Below the pieces are notes generated by a model, which did no database searches, was not told where the DNA came from, and saw nothing but the letters and a program-made list of their open reading frames with translations. Position numbers and translations under genes: made by a program. A stretch of DNA of 5,897 bases from Candidatus Methanomethylophilaceae archaeon (GTDB taxonomy: Archaea; Thermoplasmatota; Thermoplasmata; Methanomassiliicoccales; Methanomethylophilaceae). The stretch lies in the NCBI GenBank assembly GCA_016296195.1, contig JAEDJU010000082.1:1-5897 (forward strand), given 5' to 3'. Below, piece by piece: positions 1-5,897 of the stretch. Numbering within the stretch: position 1 is the first letter of the stretch; each line of letters begins with the position of its first letter.

Positions 1-463
1 CTGGTCCAACGAGTCCGTCGAGTACCACCCCGAGTTCGGTGGAACCTCCGTCCAGTGCTGGTTCGGATCCATCGCTTACGAGGCTGCACTCATGAACACT
101 GCAACCCAGCTCGGCCAGGAGAAGACCCTCAGGGACCTGTACATGTACGCTGACAGGACCAGGGGACCCGAGGGATACGTCCTCGCATACGACCACGCAT
201 ACATGGTCGGACAGGCTATCGCCGAGAACGGAAACGACCTGTACCTCAGGGCAAAGGCAGCTGGACTGACCGGTGCCAAGATCATCAAGGCCGGATACGA
301 CTCCAAGGAGCTCGGACTGACCAACAAGCAGCTGGACACCCTCAACTCCATCATCAAGACCCTGGAGTCCCTGCCTGACGACACCGACAAGATCACCGAG
401 TTCTGCACCAAGGAGTACAAGGACTCTGTGCCCAACTACAACCCCAAGAACTACGACCTCTGA
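1..463 (+). CDS. mtaB: Methanol:corrinoid methyltransferase MtaB, C-terminal part (5' truncated by window)
   Basis: MtaB moves the methyl group of methanol onto the cobalt of the corrinoid protein MtaC, the entry step of methanol-dependent methanogenesis in the cytoplasm. The frame is already open at the left edge (first full codon at base 2) and gives 153 residues before TGA at 461-463. The full enzyme is about 460 residues, so this is roughly the last third. Recognition rests on the family-typical stretch WSNESVEYHPEFGG at the left edge, followed by VLAYDHAYMVGQAIAENG, LYLRAKAAG and the C-terminal VPNYNPKNYDL, which match MtaB of Methanosarcina as I remember it. The Glu/Cys zinc ligands lie upstream and cannot be seen. 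The ATG at 92 is internal and is not the start. Codon use is strongly biased: all four visible Arg codons are AGG and C- or G-ending codons dominate, as expected of a very highly expressed gene. A second in-frame stop (TAG, 467-469) follows the TGA. A strong hairpin terminator follows, so mtaB is the last gene of its transcript. Confidence 0.95.
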   Translation, partial: WSNESVEYHPEFGGTSVQCWFGSIAYEAALMNTATQLGQEKTLRDLYMYADRTRGPEGYVLAYDHAYMVGQAIAENGNDLYLRAKAAGLTGAKIIKAGYDSKELGLTNKQLDTLNSIIKTLESLPDDTDKITEFCTKEYKDSVPNYNPKNYDL

Positions 464-491
464 GTCTAGTCGGGGTTTCTTAAACCTTTTA

Positions 492-540
492 GGCCCGGGA
501 GACTACTCTGTCTCCTTCCGGGCCACCTTTTTCCTTTCTT
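492..540 (+). terminator. Hairpin plus T-rich terminator after mtaB
   Basis: The left arm at 492-503 (GGCCCGGGAGAC) pairs with GTCTC at 510-514 and CCGGGCC at 518-524. There is a 3-base bulge (515-517) and a 6-base loop. The T-rich run TTTTTCCTTTCTT (528-540) follows directly. It starts 29 bases after the mtaB stop. Archaeal termination depends mainly on the T tract; the hairpin may also protect the 3' end of the abundant mtaB mRNA. Confidence 0.75.
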
Positions 541-576
541 CCATTTCCATCGTTCGTCACGTCTGTCCCGACGATG

Positions 577-590
577 CCAACTTTTAATAT
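577..590 (+). promoter_or_regulatory. Archaeal TATA-box promoter for the universal stress protein gene
   Basis: TTTTAATAT at 582-590 resembles the archaeal TATA consensus. It sits in an otherwise GC-rich setting, with an A-containing stretch (GCCAAC) just upstream where a BRE would lie. Archaeal transcription usually starts about 25-27 bases downstream of the box centre, which puts +1 at about 611-616, on or next to the ATG at 616. No Shine-Dalgarno sequence precedes that ATG, so the predicted mRNA is leaderless or nearly so. The assignment rests on pattern and spacing only. Confidence 0.6.
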
Positions 591-615
591 CTGGCTATGT
601 GTGCATTGAACCGCA

Positions 616-1014
616 ATGACAATCCTCATCGCATACGACGGGAGACCCAATACGGAGAGGGCTCTCGATTACGCAGTGAGACACTCCGTCAATTACAATG
701 AACCCCTTTACATCCTCACAGTGGTATCCAAGGATCAGATGGATCCAGAGGATCCCGACCCATCCGTCCGTGAGTACATGGAGGCGGCCCAGCGCAAGGC
801 AGCCTCTCAGGGAGCGGTTGTGCACACGATAATCGAGACCGGAAGGCCCGATGAGACCGTGCTCGAGACCGCCGGACGTTTCAAATGCGATACAATAGTC
901 GTGGGAAGATCCAACAAGTCACCTCTTGACAGGTTCATCCTGGGAAGCGTTTCCAACTACATTGTCAAGAACGCTCAGTGCACCGTCATCGTTGTATCGG
1001 ATCCGGAGGAGTGA
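616..1014 (+). CDS. Universal stress protein, UspA family, single domain
   Basis: This 132-residue protein matches the usual length of a single UspA domain, an alpha/beta fold that often binds ATP and forms dimers in the cytoplasm. The N-terminal strand ILIAYDG (residues 3-9) carries the conserved Asp8 expected to contact the nucleotide. The C-terminal part holds the phosphate-loop region VVGRSNKSPLDRFILGSVSN (residues 95-114), followed by the strand CTVIVV. The usual loop is G-x2-G-x9-G-S/T; here it reads G97-x2-N100-x9-G110-S111, so the second glycine is Asn. ATP binding is therefore likely but not certain. The ATG at 616 is chosen because the conserved first strand begins at residue 3 and the TATA box at 582-590 fits a leaderless transcript. 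The gene appears monocistronic: a terminator precedes it and the next gene is convergent. Codon use is mixed (Arg as AGA, AGG, CGT and CGC), unlike the strongly biased mtaB, suggesting lower or conditional expression. The partner and exact stress role cannot be read from the sequence. Confidence 0.92.
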   Translation: MTILIAYDGRPNTERALDYAVRHSVNYNEPLYILTVVSKDQMDPEDPDPSVREYMEAAQRKAASQGAVVHTIIETGRPDETVLETAGRFKCDTIVVGRSNKSPLDRFILGSVSNYIVKNAQCTVIVVSDPEE

Positions 1015-1098: not shown

Positions 1099-2676
1099 TC
1101 AGTTTCCGTTGGTGACCTTCTCCATGAGTCCCTGGGACTTGGCGATGGATTCCTCGGACATCTTCAGATCGTTCTCGATCTGATAGTCGGTGTGCTGCTC
1201 CATGCAGTCCACGGATGCGATGAGGATTCCCTCGTCGGTTGCGGTGAACTTGACGGTGATGGGTGTGTTCTTGGTCACATCCATGGGCAGCTCCATCATG
1301 AACTCTCCGACAGGGGCTCCGTCGATGATGGCGGTCTTCTTTCCATCGGCGTCGTTGACGGCCGCATCCTCGTAGATCTCGACCTTGATGGTGGACTGGC
1401 CGTCATCCACGGGGTAGTATGTCTTGATGGACTCGATGGGGAGGACCTCATTCCTGAAGATGATGTTGGAGATCATCTCGGTTCCGTCCTCGTAGATGGC
1501 CTTGATTCCGAAGGTCTTGCTGAGGACGTTGTGGACGCTCAGGACTCCCTCAACGGGCTCTGCGGGAGCTCCGGTCTGGGGATCGACGGGTGCATCGGCG
1601 GGCATCAGTGCGTTGGACTTGGCGAAGATCGCAGCTCCCTTTGCGACGGACTGGTCGGGGTCGAAGACCTTGATGTTGGCATCGGGGTACTTCGCGGCGA
1701 TGGCGTTCTTGACCTGGGGCATCCTGGAGGATCCTCCGACGAGGACGACCTCATCGATGTCGGCCATGGAGAACTCCTTGGAGGCGAGGACCTTGTCGAT
1801 GACCTCGACGGTCTTCTGGATCAGACCTGCGGAGGCGGCCTCGAACTCGTCACGGGTGATGGTGTATACGATCTTCTGTCCCTCGACGGTCAGGGTTCCC
1901 TTGGTGGACTCCGCGGTGGAGAGCCTCTTCTTGATGGTCTCGGAGTCGTTGACGAGGCTCTGCCTGATCTCCTCGTCCTCGTCCAGGGTCTCGATGTCGA
2001 CTCCGGACTCCTCGGAGACCTTCTCCTTGATGATCTTGGAGATGACCGCATCCCAGTCCTTTCCTCCGAGGAACCTCTCTCCGTCGGTTGCGACTGCGGT
2101 GAATGCACTTCCCTCGATCTCGAGGACGGTGACATCGAATGTTCCTCCTCCGAGGTCGTAGACGAGGACCCTCTTCTTGCCGTCGGCTGCGTTTCCGAAA
2201 CCGAAGGAGATGGCGGCGGCGGTGGGCTCGTTGATGACGGTGACGTCGTCCAGACCGGCGATGGTTCCGGCGGTCTTGGTGGCGTCCCTCTCGTTCTGAC
2301 CGAAGTATGCGGGACAGGTGATGACGGCTTTCTTGACGTCGCAGCCGTGGTTCTCGTTGAAGTCGTTGATCATCTTCCTGAGGATCACTGCCGAGAGCAT
2401 GATGGGGTTGTATTTCTCGCCGTCGATATCGACTTCGTAGTCAGTTCCCATCTGCCTCTTGATGGCTGTGATGATCCTCTCCGGGGGATACATCATCGCC
2501 ATGTCCTTGGCGGGTGATCCGACGATGATCTCGCCGTTCTCGTTGAAGAGGATGACTGAGGGTGTTGTGTCTTCTTGCTCGAAGTTTTTCTCCACAACGG
2601 GGTCCCCATCCTCGTCGATATATGCAAGGCACGAATATGTCGTACCGAGGTCGATACCGATGCAATACTCACTCAT
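1099..2676 (-). CDS. Short Hsp70-family chaperone (DnaK-like) without the helical lid
   Basis: This 525-residue Hsp70 paralogue has a complete nucleotide-binding domain (about 1-355). Phosphate-1 is GIDLGTTYSC (7-16), the DnaK Lys70 equivalent is about K73, and NEPTAAAISFG spans 149-159 with the catalytic Glu at 150. Phosphate-2 is DLGGGTFDVTV (174-184, with T179 and D181), and the adenosine motif is VVLVGGSSRMP (310-320). ATPase activity is therefore expected. A Pro/Ala-rich segment (about 357-377) follows, and VEGVLSVHNVLSKTFGI (375-391) sits where DnaK has its hydrophobic linker and first beta strand. The beta-sandwich substrate domain is recognisable (about 388-500, including DEGILIASV), but the protein ends some 25 residues later. 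The helical lid of a 600-640-residue DnaK is missing. The ATG at 2676 overlaps the upstream stop by 4 bases and has AGGAGG 7 bases before it. It is the last gene of a four-gene operon that also supplies a GrpE-like partner; no J-protein is visible. It is more likely a dedicated chaperone or switch than the housekeeping DnaK, which is inference. Confidence 0.93.
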   Translation of the reverse strand: MSEYCIGIDLGTTYSCLAYIDEDGDPVVEKNFEQEDTTPSVILFNENGEIIVGSPAKDMAMMYPPERIITAIKRQMGTDYEVDIDGEKYNPIMLSAVILRKMINDFNENHGCDVKKAVITCPAYFGQNERDATKTAGTIAGLDDVTVINEPTAAAISFGFGNAADGKKRVLVYDLGGGTFDVTVLEIEGSAFTAVATDGERFLGGKDWDAVISKIIKEKVSEESGVDIETLDEDEEIRQSLVNDSETIKKRLSTAESTKGTLTVEGQKIVYTITRDEFEAASAGLIQKTVEVIDKVLASKEFSMADIDEVVLVGGSSRMPQVKNAIAAKYPDANIKVFDPDQSVAKGAAIFAKSNALMPADAPVDPQTGAPAEPVEGVLSVHNVLSKTFGIKAIYEDGTEMISNIIFRNEVLPIESIKTYYPVDDGQSTIKVEIYEDAAVNDADGKKTAIIDGAPVGEFMMELPMDVTKNTPITVKFTATDEGILIASVDCMEQHTDYQIENDLKMSEESIAKSQGLMEKVTNGN

Positions 2677-3479
2677 TCTTCTTCCTCCTGTCTCTCGGTT
2701 TCCTTTTCTTCGGATTTCTTGTCTGAAGTCGTTTCGGAAGTCGTTTCATCCGCCTTCGCCGTCTCGGTGAACCTGTAGATCGTGACCTTCTCCTTCAGAA
2801 GGACCTTGTTTCCGATCTTGTATCCGTCCGAGAGCCTCTCGGCGATCATACCGTTCTTCTCCTCGTCATCGGTCGGTACCACACCGATGATCCTTTGGTG
2901 GAGTGTGTTGAGCCTGTCGTAAGGGAACGGTCCGATGTAGACCCCTCCGTCGGTGAGGATGTTCTCCATGTCGACGCTGTACGCCTCGAATGAGGACAGC
3001 ACATCCTCCGCGGTCATGTCCCCTATGCGTTTCCTCATACCCTGGCAGAGCTTGAAGAAGTCCTCCCTCATGACGGAGATCTGCTCCATGGCCTTCACCA
3101 GGTTCTTGTTGGATGTGTCCGCGTCCCTCTTGTCCAGGGATGCGGTGAGTGTCTTCATCTGCTCCTTGGATGTGAGGTATGCAGACATGTCCGGCATCTC
3201 GACCTTGACGGGCTGGGGTTCCGCGACCGCGGGCTCCCTGTCCTTCAGGTCCTCCAATATGTATCTGATCTTCAGGAGCTCGCTGCGGATCTCCTTCATG
3301 TCCTCATTCTCGGGAGCCGGTTCGGTGGCCTCCATGCGGATCTCACCCGCATCCTCGGAAACACATTCCTCGTACACAACCTCCTCATCGTTCTCGGCGA
3401 TGTCGATGGGGATCTCCCCCGAACCCTCCTTGATGGTGAATCCGTTGACGAGGAAGTTCTTGATCTTGTTCTCGTTCAT
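2673..3479 (-). CDS. Diverged GrpE-like nucleotide exchange factor
   Basis: This 268-residue protein is the probable ADP/ATP exchange partner of the adjacent Hsp70. The C-terminal region (about 160-236) has the GrpE pattern: a helix (LSSFEAYSVDMENIL), then GVYIGPFPYDRLNTLHQ, aligning with the GrpE segment around FDPxxHEAV. It ends with AERLSDGYKIGNKVLLKEKV, aligning with the beta-wing ending VLQKGYxLxxRVLRPAxV. Residues about 60-80 and 103-155 are charged and helical, as expected for the GrpE dimer helices, but a Pro-rich break (82-97) separates them. The first 60 residues are acidic and probably disordered. The tail (about 237-268) is very charged and ends in REEEE-like sequence (RQEEEE). 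I chose the ATG at 3479 because GGGAGGG lies 6 bases upstream and it overlaps the GTPase stop as ATGA. The in-frame ATG at 3572 would add 31 residues inside the GTPase gene with no RBS argument. It is longer and more diverged than ordinary GrpE (about 170-210 residues). The GrpE call combines the C-terminal match with the Hsp70 neighbour. Confidence 0.78.
   Translation of the reverse strand: MNENKIKNFLVNGFTIKEGSGEIPIDIAENDEEVVYEECVSEDAGEIRMEATEPAPENEDMKEIRSELLKIRYILEDLKDREPAVAEPQPVKVEMPDMSAYLTSKEQMKTLTASLDKRDADTSNKNLVKAMEQISVMREDFFKLCQGMRKRIGDMTAEDVLSSFEAYSVDMENILTDGGVYIGPFPYDRLNTLHQRIIGVVPTDDEEKNGMIAERLSDGYKIGNKVLLKEKVTIYRFTETAKADETTSETTSDKKSEEKETERQEEEE
2684..2689 (-). promoter_or_regulatory. 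Ribosome binding site of the Hsp70 gene
   Basis: AGGAGG (minus strand) lies 7 bases before the ATG at 2676, inside the Glu-rich last codons of the upstream gene. With the ATGA stop/start overlap it fixes the Hsp70 start and indicates coupled translation. Confidence 0.8.
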
Positions 3480-4726
3480 CTGAGTCCCTCCCTGTTGAGC
3501 AGCCATATGAACGGGTCCTCTACCCTCATGGGCGACACACCCCTGGGGAGGCTGCTTCCCACAGGGTTGCATCCCAGGGCCGAAACGGCGAAGAAGCAGT
3601 GCTCCTTGAATCCGTTGACCATCTGGATGAAGTTGTCACCGACCGTCCTTCTGAGGTATTCGGACAGTTCGGCATCTATCTGGAGGAAGTTCTCCTCATC
3701 GTACTTCCCGTGTTCCCTGGGGATGAACACCGATGCGTTCTTCCCGAACAGGACTTTGTCCTCCTCATCATTCTCGGCGTTCTTCATCAGGACGTCGCAT
3801 TTCGTGAGGCAGACGGCCAACGGGATGTCGATCTTGTCCTTGGACCTGATCTTCTTGTTCCCGCGTATGGTCTGGCAGATGTTGTTCAGTATATCGGAGA
3901 CGTCCGGTCCCACGGAGGGCTTGTTCTCCACGTTGATCCTGTTGTTGATGTACTTCACCTGGAGTGGGTCCACCAGGTAGACTATGCCCGCGGCGTTGGT
4001 TATGAACGCGTCCATGCTCAGGGACGAGATCTTCCCACTGGATGTCAGGTCCTCTCCGGCGGTGTCGAAGAACGCGAAGGTGTAGACCTTCGGCCTCTCC
4101 TCGTCGAAAAGTCTCAGGTAGTAGATCAACGGTTCACGCGATTCGTTCGATATGTCGAATGATTTCGTGGGCAGCAGCTTCCTCTTCTCCTCGAACAGGC
4201 GGCGGTAGTACATGTCCCTGTAGCGGAGTGTGGTGCTGTCGTTGGCCGCATGGAGGACGCCGTCGAATTCGCTCGACACATAGTTCTTCAGCTGGTTGAT
4301 CAGCACGGCTATGTAGTGGCTCTTCCCCACACCCTTGGGTCCCAGGATCACGAAGATGTTGTTCCCGTCCTCCTCGGCTCCCGGGGGGATGTTGTTGTGG
4401 CATATGGGACAGACCCTGGTGTATACAGGACGTTTGCATATGTCGCACAGTCCGGAGGAGTTCCTGATGATGTGCTGTTTGGCCACAACCGCATCGGGTC
4501 CCTCCGGGTCCTTCCCGTAGAAACGGCTCTTCTCCGGGTCGATCTCGGAGAGTCCGTCCCTGGAGATGTACTTCTTGGCATCCACGTTCTTCATGCTGAA
4601 TGCGGCGGATGCGAATGATTTGGCGCATGTCGGTCCGGTGCACACGTAGTGGACATCGTTGAGGTCTATCCTGCTGAAGCAGTACGGGCAGACATACTCT
4701 ATCGCGTTCTTGTCCTTCCTGGCCAT
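3476..4726 (-). CDS. Double zinc-ribbon protein with TRAFAC-like GTPase domain
   Basis: This 416-residue protein is probably a cytoplasmic GTP-driven switch. Two Cys4 zinc-ribbon-like modules precede the GTPase. The first has C13-x2-C16-x12-C29-x4-C34 and the second C94-x2-C97-x8-C106-x2-C109. The P-loop follows as GPKGVGKS (129-136). The G3/Walker B motif is FFDTAGED (219-226). TKCD (308-311) stands at the G4 position in place of NKxD, after the strand IPLAVCL. SAL (382-384) fits G5. The presence of G1, G3, G4 and G5 in order argues for a real GTPase rather than a generic ATPase. About 80 residues rich in Tyr and Arg lie between the P-loop and G3, longer than in small Ras-like GTPases, and the G2 threonine cannot be assigned. 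The set resembles the families called TRAFAC-clade GTPase or double-GTPase 2, known from predicted conflict systems; that family name is from memory and unverified. No membrane segment is visible. The ATG at 4726 follows the previous stop after one base and has AGGAGG 7 bases upstream. The stop overlaps the next ATG. Confidence 0.85.
   Translation of the reverse strand: MARKDKNAIEYVCPYCFSRIDLNDVHYVCTGPTCAKSFASAAFSMKNVDAKKYISRDGLSEIDPEKSRFYGKDPEGPDAVVAKQHIIRNSSGLCDICKRPVYTRVCPICHNNIPPGAEEDGNNIFVILGPKGVGKSHYIAVLINQLKNYVSSEFDGVLHAANDSTTLRYRDMYYRRLFEEKRKLLPTKSFDISNESREPLIYYLRLFDEERPKVYTFAFFDTAGEDLTSSGKISSLSMDAFITNAAGIVYLVDPLQVKYINNRINVENKPSVGPDVSDILNNICQTIRGNKKIRSKDKIDIPLAVCLTKCDVLMKNAENDEEDKVLFGKNASVFIPREHGKYDEENFLQIDAELSEYLRRTVGDNFIQMVNGFKEHCFFAVSALGCNPVGSSLPRGVSPMRVEDPFIWLLNREGLR
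3486..3492 (-). promoter_or_regulatory. Ribosome binding site of the GrpE-like gene (decides its start)
   Basis: GGGAGGG (minus strand) lies 6 bases before the ATG at 3479. It is formed by the Arg-Glu-Gly codons near the end of the GTPase gene. It supports the start at 3479 over the longer in-frame option at 3572. Confidence 0.78.
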
Positions 4727-4727
4727 C

Positions 4728-5897
4728 TCAGTCCCTCCTGTACAGCGGGTGCACGAACCTGTAGAGGTAGTAGTTCTCCTCGTTCTCGAAGAACAGCCTC
4801 ATCTTCTTGATGTCCGTCACCTTCCCGTTGGGGATGGTTATCTGTGCGGCACCTCCGGACAACCTGACCGTCTGGTCGGATCTCCAGACCACCTCTCCAT
4901 CGCACCTCTTGAGCGGGATACCCTCGGTGACCTGCACGGCGATGATCTGCGGCAGTTCGGGGATGGTCTTGTCGGTCGTGATCTCCAGGGTGGTTCCGGA
5001 ACGGTCCTGTTTGACGTTGTACCTGACCTTCTTGCACTCTGCGGAGTACACGTCCAGGGCGAGTCCCCTGGAGGGGATGTCCTCATCGTCCACACGGTAG
5101 ATGGCGAAGATGTTGAGGCACTTCTTCACGGACTTGCCCATGGGGATCCTGATGAGCTTCTCCTCTTGGTATTCCTCGCGTCTTACCGTGAGGATCTCGG
5201 CATCGATGTCGTTGAGGTTTCTGACCCCGTTGTTGGATATGACGACCTTGGCCTCTATGGCCTCGGGGGGCCAGATCATGGTGAGGATGCAGTCCCTGTT
5301 GCTGAGTGTGGTCTTCACATCGCGGAAGGGTCTGACGTTGGCCACCATGGCCTCCCTTCCCTTCACGGCCATCCTGCCGCGGGGGATGATGGGGTAGACG
5401 TACTGCACAGCACCGTCCGGGAGCATGAACCTCGCTCCGTCGACGAACTCCTGCACAGGTTCGACCTTGGTCATCCACGAACGGATGTCATCCATCTTCA
5501 CCAGTCTTCCCGGGATGGATATCCTCTTGGGTGTGATGTACAGTTCGACCTGTTCCTCGGTGGACCATCTGGCGGTGTAGCTTCCGTCCTTGCTGTTCCA
5601 TCTGATCTCCATGTCCTTCACGGGCTCTGGAGCATCGACAGGTATCGCGGCGAACATGTTACCGGCGGACCTCTCTACACGGCTGCGGGTCTCGTACTCG
5701 GCGACGAAAAGGTAGTAGTACTTCTTCCCGCCGGTGAGTCCGGTGTCGTCGTACACGGTCTCCCCGTTCAGGGCGATCTCTATGCCGTTCCCGTTGCCGG
5801 TGGAATCCTCGGTCCTCCACAGGCGCACCCTCGTGCAACCGCGGGGCTTCTCGTACATGATCCTGAGCCCACCGTCTATGGGTTCGATGTGGACGTT
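4728..5897 (-). CDS. Beta-rich protein with tandem FN3-like repeats (5' end beyond window)
   Basis: No precise family is recognised. The frame is open to the right edge, giving 389 residues to the TGA at 4728-4730. The ATG at 5858 falls inside a beta strand (GGLRIMYEKP) and is probably not the start. Sequence rhythm suggests about four units of 90-100 residues, each fibronectin type III-like. Unit 1 includes RIMYEKP, VRLWR and DDTGLTGGKKYYYLFVAEYE, a typical FN3 E-F strand pattern. Unit 2 starts near APEPVKDMEIRW (about 5630) with YTARW. Unit 3 starts near VRPFRDVKTTL (about 5330) with ILTMIWPP and LNIFAIYRVDDED. Unit 4 starts near VRYNVKQDRSGTTLEI (about 5025) and ends LFFENEENYYLYRFVHP. No signal peptide can be judged and no membrane segment is seen. 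It is the first visible gene of the operon, one base from the zinc-ribbon GTPase. Being cytoplasmic by association with Hsp70 and GTPase partners, it may be a scaffold, substrate or target-recognition subunit; that role is inference. An N-terminal domain may lie outside the window. Confidence 0.72.
   Translation of the reverse strand, partial: NVHIEPIDGGLRIMYEKPRGCTRVRLWRTEDSTGNGNGIEIALNGETVYDDTGLTGGKKYYYLFVAEYETRSRVERSAGNMFAAIPVDAPEPVKDMEIRWNSKDGSYTARWSTEEQVELYITPKRISIPGRLVKMDDIRSWMTKVEPVQEFVDGARFMLPDGAVQYVYPIIPRGRMAVKGREAMVANVRPFRDVKTTLSNRDCILTMIWPPEAIEAKVVISNNGVRNLNDIDAEILTVRREEYQEEKLIRIPMGKSVKKCLNIFAIYRVDDEDIPSRGLALDVYSAECKKVRYNVKQDRSGTTLEITTDKTIPELPQIIAVQVTEGIPLKRCDGEVVWRSDQTVRLSGGAAQITIPNGKVTDIKKMRLFFENEENYYLYRFVHPLYRRD
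4734..4739 (-). promoter_or_regulatory. Ribosome binding site of the zinc-ribbon GTPase gene
   Basis: AGGAGG (minus strand) lies 7 bases before the ATG at 4726. It is formed by the tandem Arg codons AGG AGG near the end of the upstream gene (…YRRD, stop). The stop and ATG are separated by a single base (TGA-G-ATG), so ribosomes finishing the upstream gene are well placed to reinitiate. Confidence 0.8.

Follow-up and report, generated by a model that had tools for sequence, protein, structure and literature searches.

The window analyzed here, a 5,897-nucleotide stretch (contig JAEDJU010000082.1, assembly GCA_016296195.1) from a Candidatus Methanomethylophilaceae archaeon, holds the end of a five-gene module that encodes, in order, an Hsp70 fused at its C terminus to a von Willebrand A (vWA) domain (Hsp70-vWA), a zinc-ribbon/fibronectin type III (FN3) protein, a zinc-ribbon double-GTPase (DO-GTPase2), a GrpE-like protein, and a second, lidless Hsp70 (Hsp70b). 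With high confidence, we regard the module as a relative of the chaperone-themed double-GTPase systems that is without GAP1. Judged from sequence, this GAP1-less branch would likely be a chromosomally fixed, nucleoside triphosphate (NTP)-gated client-handling machine and not an active immune system, a reading to which we assign a probability of about 0.5. Most interesting are the apparent replacement of an Hsp70 lid by a vWA domain and the occurrence of gene sets with and without GAP1 together in seven genomes.

Double-GTPase systems, as outlined in passages of Kaur et al. 2020 (PMC7159879), have a core of DO-GTPase and GAP1 and are predicted to act in biological conflict. The DO-GTPase usually carries zinc ribbons; when there are two, the second has membrane helices, and the neighborhoods are mobile with variable effectors. 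About 14% of the GAP1-N2 type have HSP70 and GrpE in the neighborhood, and this chaperone theme sometimes includes a second HSP70 without a peptide-binding domain and an FNIII protein, most often as a fusion with DnaJ or TPR. The original prediction for the window had pointed to predicted NTP-dependent conflict systems, and this prototype bears the link out. In the parts of the papers found that deal with them, the role of double-GTPase systems is only predicted.

Conservation of a five-gene module

The window carries four tightly packed minus-strand genes with junctions of +1, -4, and -4 bases, and good ribosome-binding sites precede the starts of the three downstream genes, just as originally described. 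The family assignments made then (FN3-like, zinc-ribbon GTPase, GrpE-like, lidless Hsp70) were also correct. The four genes do belong together, but they are only the end of the module: in loci L001 to L006, a fifth gene upstream of the FN3 gene, in the region outside the window, encodes Hsp70-vWA. Profiles of the five proteins were run against 36 module loci that, with the window, were chosen by hand; gene finding around the loci used our own codon-usage script, and genes that it missed were recovered by the profile search. In 31 of the 36 loci, all five genes share strand and order, so that the homologs are not scattered and the genes behave as one unit, as had been proposed. Contig ends truncate three loci (L074, L080, and L082), whose remaining module genes are in order. 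The gap between the GTPase and Hsp70b genes is only ∼75 to 80 bases in L059 (G122) and L060 (G120).

The FN3 profile matched 124 of the 147 genomes of the order Methanomassiliicoccales (E value of ≤1e−3), 67 strongly and 57 over short stretches; we call the 67 genomes with a strong match, by our own cut of E < 1e−90, module genomes. DO-GTPase2 (PF19993) was found in 67 of the 147 genomes, in 56 of them over the cut-off, a set that differs from the 67 module genomes. Across the phylum, the GTPase profile matched 31 of 389 genomes sampled, of which 29, all from the order, matched strongly; the two outside the 29 (G290 and G310) are weak P-loop matches. The GTPase had no match among 50,697 phage records, and none was confirmed in viral contigs.

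Compared two by two (10 pairs), the trees of the five module genes have correlated distances, with r of 0.71 to 0.97. These trees omit copies below length limits or of at least 1,300 amino acids, and loci L007 to L042, L048, L049, L054, L055, L061, L063, and L074. The genes that flank the module recur within groups of loci. Taken from these sequence comparisons, the pattern points to vertical inheritance of the module in part of the order. All six relatives with a name come from assemblies of Methanomethylophilaceae, Methanomassiliicoccaceae, or Methanomassiliicoccales; Methanomethylophilaceae are a family of this order. The nearest relative, L001, shares amino acid identities of 99% (326 codons), 88%, 96%, and 90% with the window, the last for the FN3 part. 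The ratio of nonsynonymous to synonymous substitution rates (dN/dS) between the two is 0.013 to 0.20 across the four genes, and the module genes are under purifying selection.

Two Hsp70s without a helical lid

In the Hsp70-vWA of L004, the HSP70 match extends up to residue 471 and the VWA match begins at residue 503, which leaves no room for a helical lid; by these domain boundaries, the predicted vWA domain occupies the place of the lid. The gene in L001 is cut by the contig end. The elements of the metal ion-dependent adhesion site (MIDAS), DxSxS, T, and TDG, are complete in all 26 module copies, and five of seven copies linked to GAP1 have Asn instead of the MIDAS Thr. A phosphate motif of the DLGGGTFD type is present in 32 of 33 Hsp70-vWA and 34 of 34 Hsp70b sequences. 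A homolog search with the vWA part, by a method that finds only relatives with short exact words in common, returned 150 matches; HSP70 and VWA occur together in all of the 120 matches listed, and the named ones come from Methanomassiliicoccales, Thermoplasmata, or Euryarchaeota.

Hsp70b terminates shortly after the beta substrate-binding domain and likewise has no lid. Against the NCBIfam DnaK equivalogs, it scores far under the cut-offs, with 317 bits where 648 are needed and 305 bits where 823 are. In a tree rooted on four DnaK copies, the 33 Hsp70-vWA sequences form a clade with a support of 0.999 and the 34 Hsp70b sequences form one with a support of 0.966. The four DnaK rows were not scored as a single clade, which we read as an artifact of rerooting because the other 67 sequences form one clade with a support of 1.0.

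General chaperones are encoded separately in most module genomes. An Hsp70 match was found in 144 of the 147 genomes of the order and a DnaJ domain in 128; among the 67 module genomes, 45 have a further near-full-length DnaK match (E < 1e−200) and 8 a partial one; 13 gave no DnaJ match and 1 gave only a weak one. The original argument that the locus is not a general folding operon is thus borne out, the module Hsp70 not being the only DnaK, and we rejected an ordinary DnaK operon on the separate DnaK match together with the kept five-gene order. The portion of PMC10804542 concerned with these genes mentions dnaK, dnaJ, and grpE in the order Methanomassiliicoccales and does not mention the five-gene module.

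The GTPase, GrpE-like, and FN3 proteins

The DO-GTPase2 gene lies directly between the FN3 and GrpE-like genes, with no GAP1 adjoining. Its product contains the motifs GPKGVGKS, DTAGE, and TKCD, with Cys pairs of a zinc ribbon ahead of the P-loop. The GrpE-like protein scores 21.6 bits against Pfam GrpE in the window, under the cut-off, and 40.3 bits in a GAP1-linked copy. The FN3 protein is ∼1,000 residues long in L001 to L006, and a model of the L001 protein matches fibronectin type III. In a sequence-profile search of solved structures, the GTPase, GrpE-like, and FN3 profiles gave nothing convincing except zinc ribbons. None of the five module proteins has a predicted membrane segment.

The original prediction had also stated that a J-protein is lacking, a claim that now appears unsafe. 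In hhalign, the N-terminal 95 residues from 21 FN3 proteins aligned to DnaJ J-domains with a probability of 34.3% in local and 6.0% in global mode; three control segments gave 0.1 to 0.8% in local mode, and the J-like alignment matches the first J helix in register. The HPD motif is present in 0 of the 21 J-like starts, and 0 of 10 N-terminal FN3 pieces matched the Pfam J-domain (E ≤ 10). A fold search with the 1,000-residue model, whose coverage fell almost solely on the FN3 part and not on the J-like start, had no J-protein among the matches listed. As a weak lead, the start of the FN3 protein, which lies outside the window, may be a degenerate J-like docking segment without HPD.

A second kind of DO-GTPase2, with N-terminal membrane helices predicted from hydropathy, has a strong match in 51 of the 147 genomes and possibly supplies the membrane half of the double GTPase. 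It stands on the module contig within ∼10 kb in some genomes (G062, G063, G064, G073, and G078) and elsewhere in others. We had considered second PF19993 matches as signs of a duplicated module; those inspected are this separate DO-GTPase2 with predicted membrane helices.

Paralogous loci that contain GAP1

GAP1-N2 (PF20013) was found in 8 of the 147 genomes, over the cut-off in 7, on contigs other than that of the module, and all seven over the cut-off fall among the 67 module genomes. The GAP1 loci hold a second set of genes for a GTPase, GAP1, Hsp70-vWA, an FN3 protein, a GrpE-like protein, and Hsp70b. L067 and L068 have the whole set on one strand; in L064, L065, and L066 it is also whole, with the GrpE-like and Hsp70b genes inverted, and in G091 and G099 it is truncated or dispersed over contigs. 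Pfam recognizes GAP1-N2 and GAP1-M in L065, L067, and, across two neighboring frames, L064. GAP1 is split into two neighboring frames at about the same place in L064:3629-6010 (G086) and L069:5669-8017 (G091); by the Pfam matches in L064, the split point lies between GAP1-N2 and GAP1-M. A membrane protein of the GAP1 loci scored 22.8 bits against PF19993 in L067, under the cut-off, and had no match in L065.

GAP1-linked copies form their own clade in all five gene trees with supports of 0.991 to 1.0, and the DnaK-rooted tree shows the split between module and GAP1-linked copies for both kinds of Hsp70. Because all trees split in this way, the common ancestor had both Hsp70s and the loci diverged as sets. 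GAP1, presumably the link between sensing and effectors, has likely been lost from the module; its absence is most simply explained as a loss because GAP1 is a core part in bacteria. L074:4004-10707 (G091:C94) is a divergent module copy whose GTPase match is much weaker (92 bits); G091 carries a GAP1 locus as well. Two Rhodococcus plasmid records are also relatives (∼30% identity). In one of these (L063), GAP1 is encoded two genes before the GTPase, and no Hsp70 was found among the 6 of 15 called open reading frames that were scanned.

Proposed function and alternatives

The original proposal of one machine acting through two NTP-driven switches is kept here as an inference. In the mechanism that we propose, the FN3 protein would serve as a scaffold, and the GTP state of the DO-GTPase, together with its membrane DO-GTPase partner where present, would time the docking of the chaperones. 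Standing where the lid would be, the vWA domain would capture a client or partner via its metal site, the two lidless Hsp70s would bind and release peptide segments under ATP, and the GrpE-like protein, as exchange factor, would reset both. Without lids, clients would be held briefly, which would suit the assembly or remodeling of a particular complex over general folding. We favor such client handling over defense because of the purifying selection, the fixed gene order, and the fact that no effector was seen among the flanking genes scanned.

Several observations weigh against this reading. The GrpE-like gene is missing from the four-gene loci L059 and L060, and the order can do without the module, as 80 of the 147 genomes have no strong FN3 match. 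No further DnaK was seen in 14 of the 67 module genomes, possibly in incomplete assemblies. The membrane DO-GTPase2 occurs in only 48 of the 67, mostly not adjacent to the module. That no effector was seen near the module comes from a Pfam scan of part of the flanking genes. A gain of GAP1 in the other locus, in place of a loss from the module, is conceivable. The pace of change counts here as well: the GrpE-like and FN3 proteins evolve faster than Hsp70b (dN/dS of 0.26 to 0.44 against more distant relatives), as a conflict sensor might.

That last point bears on an active antiviral conflict system, in which the FN3 protein would sense an invader, the GTPase would set a threshold, and the Hsp70s would act as a multimeric effector, in line with what has been put forward for the bacterial relatives. 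Besides the faster change of the two proteins, such a role would account for the DO-GTPase2, FNIII protein, HSP70, and GrpE that the module has in common with the predicted conflict systems in the relevant parts of PMC7159879, and GAP1-containing paralogs coexist in seven genomes. The module itself, however, has no GAP1, no visible effector, a fixed order, and repeated flanks, and the four window proteins match no PADLOC model (2023 library); we consider active defense somewhat unlikely. A membrane or envelope stress device, in which the soluble GTPase and a membrane DO-GTPase pair at the membrane and recruit the lidless Hsp70s, appears improbable. It would fit the genomes that encode both GTPases, some within ∼10 kb, and the account, in the portion of PMC11237479 that treats PSP operons, of DO-GTPases linked there to membrane stress; yet the five module proteins are without predicted membrane segments, and 19 of the 67 module genomes have no strong membrane GTPase match. 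We give hardly any credence to a divergent copy of an ordinary DnaK-DnaJ-GrpE operon in which the GTPase and FN3 genes merely happen to be neighbors. In its favor, Hsp70 generally works with GrpE and the FN3 protein may begin with a J-like segment, but the gene order is kept, DnaK and DnaJ are encoded separately, the J-like starts are devoid of HPD, and neither Hsp70 has a lid.

A bolder form of the client-handling reading, offered tentatively and as one that we would not bet on, is that methanogens domesticated a predicted immune machine. With GAP1 and effectors lost, it would have become a fixed second Hsp70 system beside DnaK, built on a new chaperone architecture with a metal-dependent vWA domain in place of the Hsp70 lid and a GTPase that gates the cycle instead of a J-protein. 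The module could tell whether predicted conflict modules can turn into housekeeping parts, and the fixed GAP1-less form together with the GAP1-containing form of seven genomes is a natural experiment on the role of GAP1. If true, an Hsp70 in which a vWA domain replaces the lid would represent a separate mode of client binding and release. The five soluble proteins are amenable to reconstitution.

Features of the window and other observations

Positions of the features are collected in Table 1. The universal stress protein gene and mtaB (window positions 2 to 1014) also adjoin the module in several relatives and not in others. Further flanking genes we take, from the look of their sequences only, to encode a pseudouridine synthase, a parvulin, and MtaC.

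Table 1. Features of the window and loci of the GAP1-containing paralogs
Feature	Position	Strand	Remarks
mtaB, end of gene	2-463	+	Left of module
Universal stress protein gene	616-1014	+	Left of module
Hsp70b, lidless Hsp70, last module gene, 525 aa	1099..2676	-	Pfam HSP70, 316.7 bits
GrpE-like protein, probable nucleotide-exchange factor, 268 aa	2673..3479	-	
Zinc-ribbon double-GTPase (DO-GTPase2), 416 aa	3476..4726	-	PF19993, 31.7 bits (cut-off, 27)
FN3 protein, C-terminal 389 aa, cut by window end	4728..5897	-	∼Residues 612-1000 of L001 relative
GAP1-containing paralogous loci, seven genomes	L064-L071, L075		

One in-frame TAG is present in the module FN3 genes at L072:5453-8425 (G086:C15) and L073:4006-7233 (G098:C38). 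The order Methanomassiliicoccales is known for pyrrolysine, and by sequence a readthrough of these codons as pyrrolysine is possible. Long frames in L083 and L078 had suggested an FN3-GTPase-GrpE-like fusion, which the domain check did not uphold: L083 has FN3 and GrpE-like parts in one open frame and the GTPase in another, and L078 has no multicomponent frame. At L048:13616-17800 (G006:C9), genes for a TraG/TraD-like coupling protein (PF02534, 112 bits), a GrpE-like protein (26.7 bits), and a divergent third Hsp70, 28% identical to the window Hsp70b, stand in a row; this is another Hsp70/GrpE pair beside an NTPase.

Comparison with known systems

Within the open-license PMC literature, outside which most subscription papers fall, no paper was found on the archaeal module or on an Hsp70-vWA fusion. 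The module shares an Hsp70 ATPase fold and a GrpE-like factor with the canonical DnaK-DnaJ-GrpE system; it differs in having no lid and no J-protein with HPD, in Hsp70s that belong to a different clade, and in the added GTPase, FN3, and vWA components. Hsp70-like units and vWA domains near NTPases also occur in CoCoNuT type IV restriction systems, in the sections of PMC11090510 that describe them, a resemblance only: these systems combine a McrB-type GTPase, nucleases, and RNA-targeting domains, none of which was seen in the module.

The closest published counterpart is the second theme of the GAP1-N2 double-GTPase systems as presented in parts of PMC7159879, with which the module shares a DO-GTPase whose N terminus bears zinc ribbons, an FNIII-repeat protein, HSP70 with GrpE, and a second Hsp70. 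Unlike these systems, the module has no GAP1, one of its Hsp70s has a C-terminal vWA domain, and Hsp70b is without a lid but keeps the beta substrate-binding region. Its gene order is fixed and its flanks are repeated with no effector seen, whereas the bacterial neighborhoods are mobile. The GAP1-containing paralogous locus holds the same five gene kinds, each a sister clade to that of the module, and differs in the GAP1 gene between those for the GTPase and Hsp70-vWA, in its gene order, and in the MIDAS Thr-to-Asn change in five of its seven copies.

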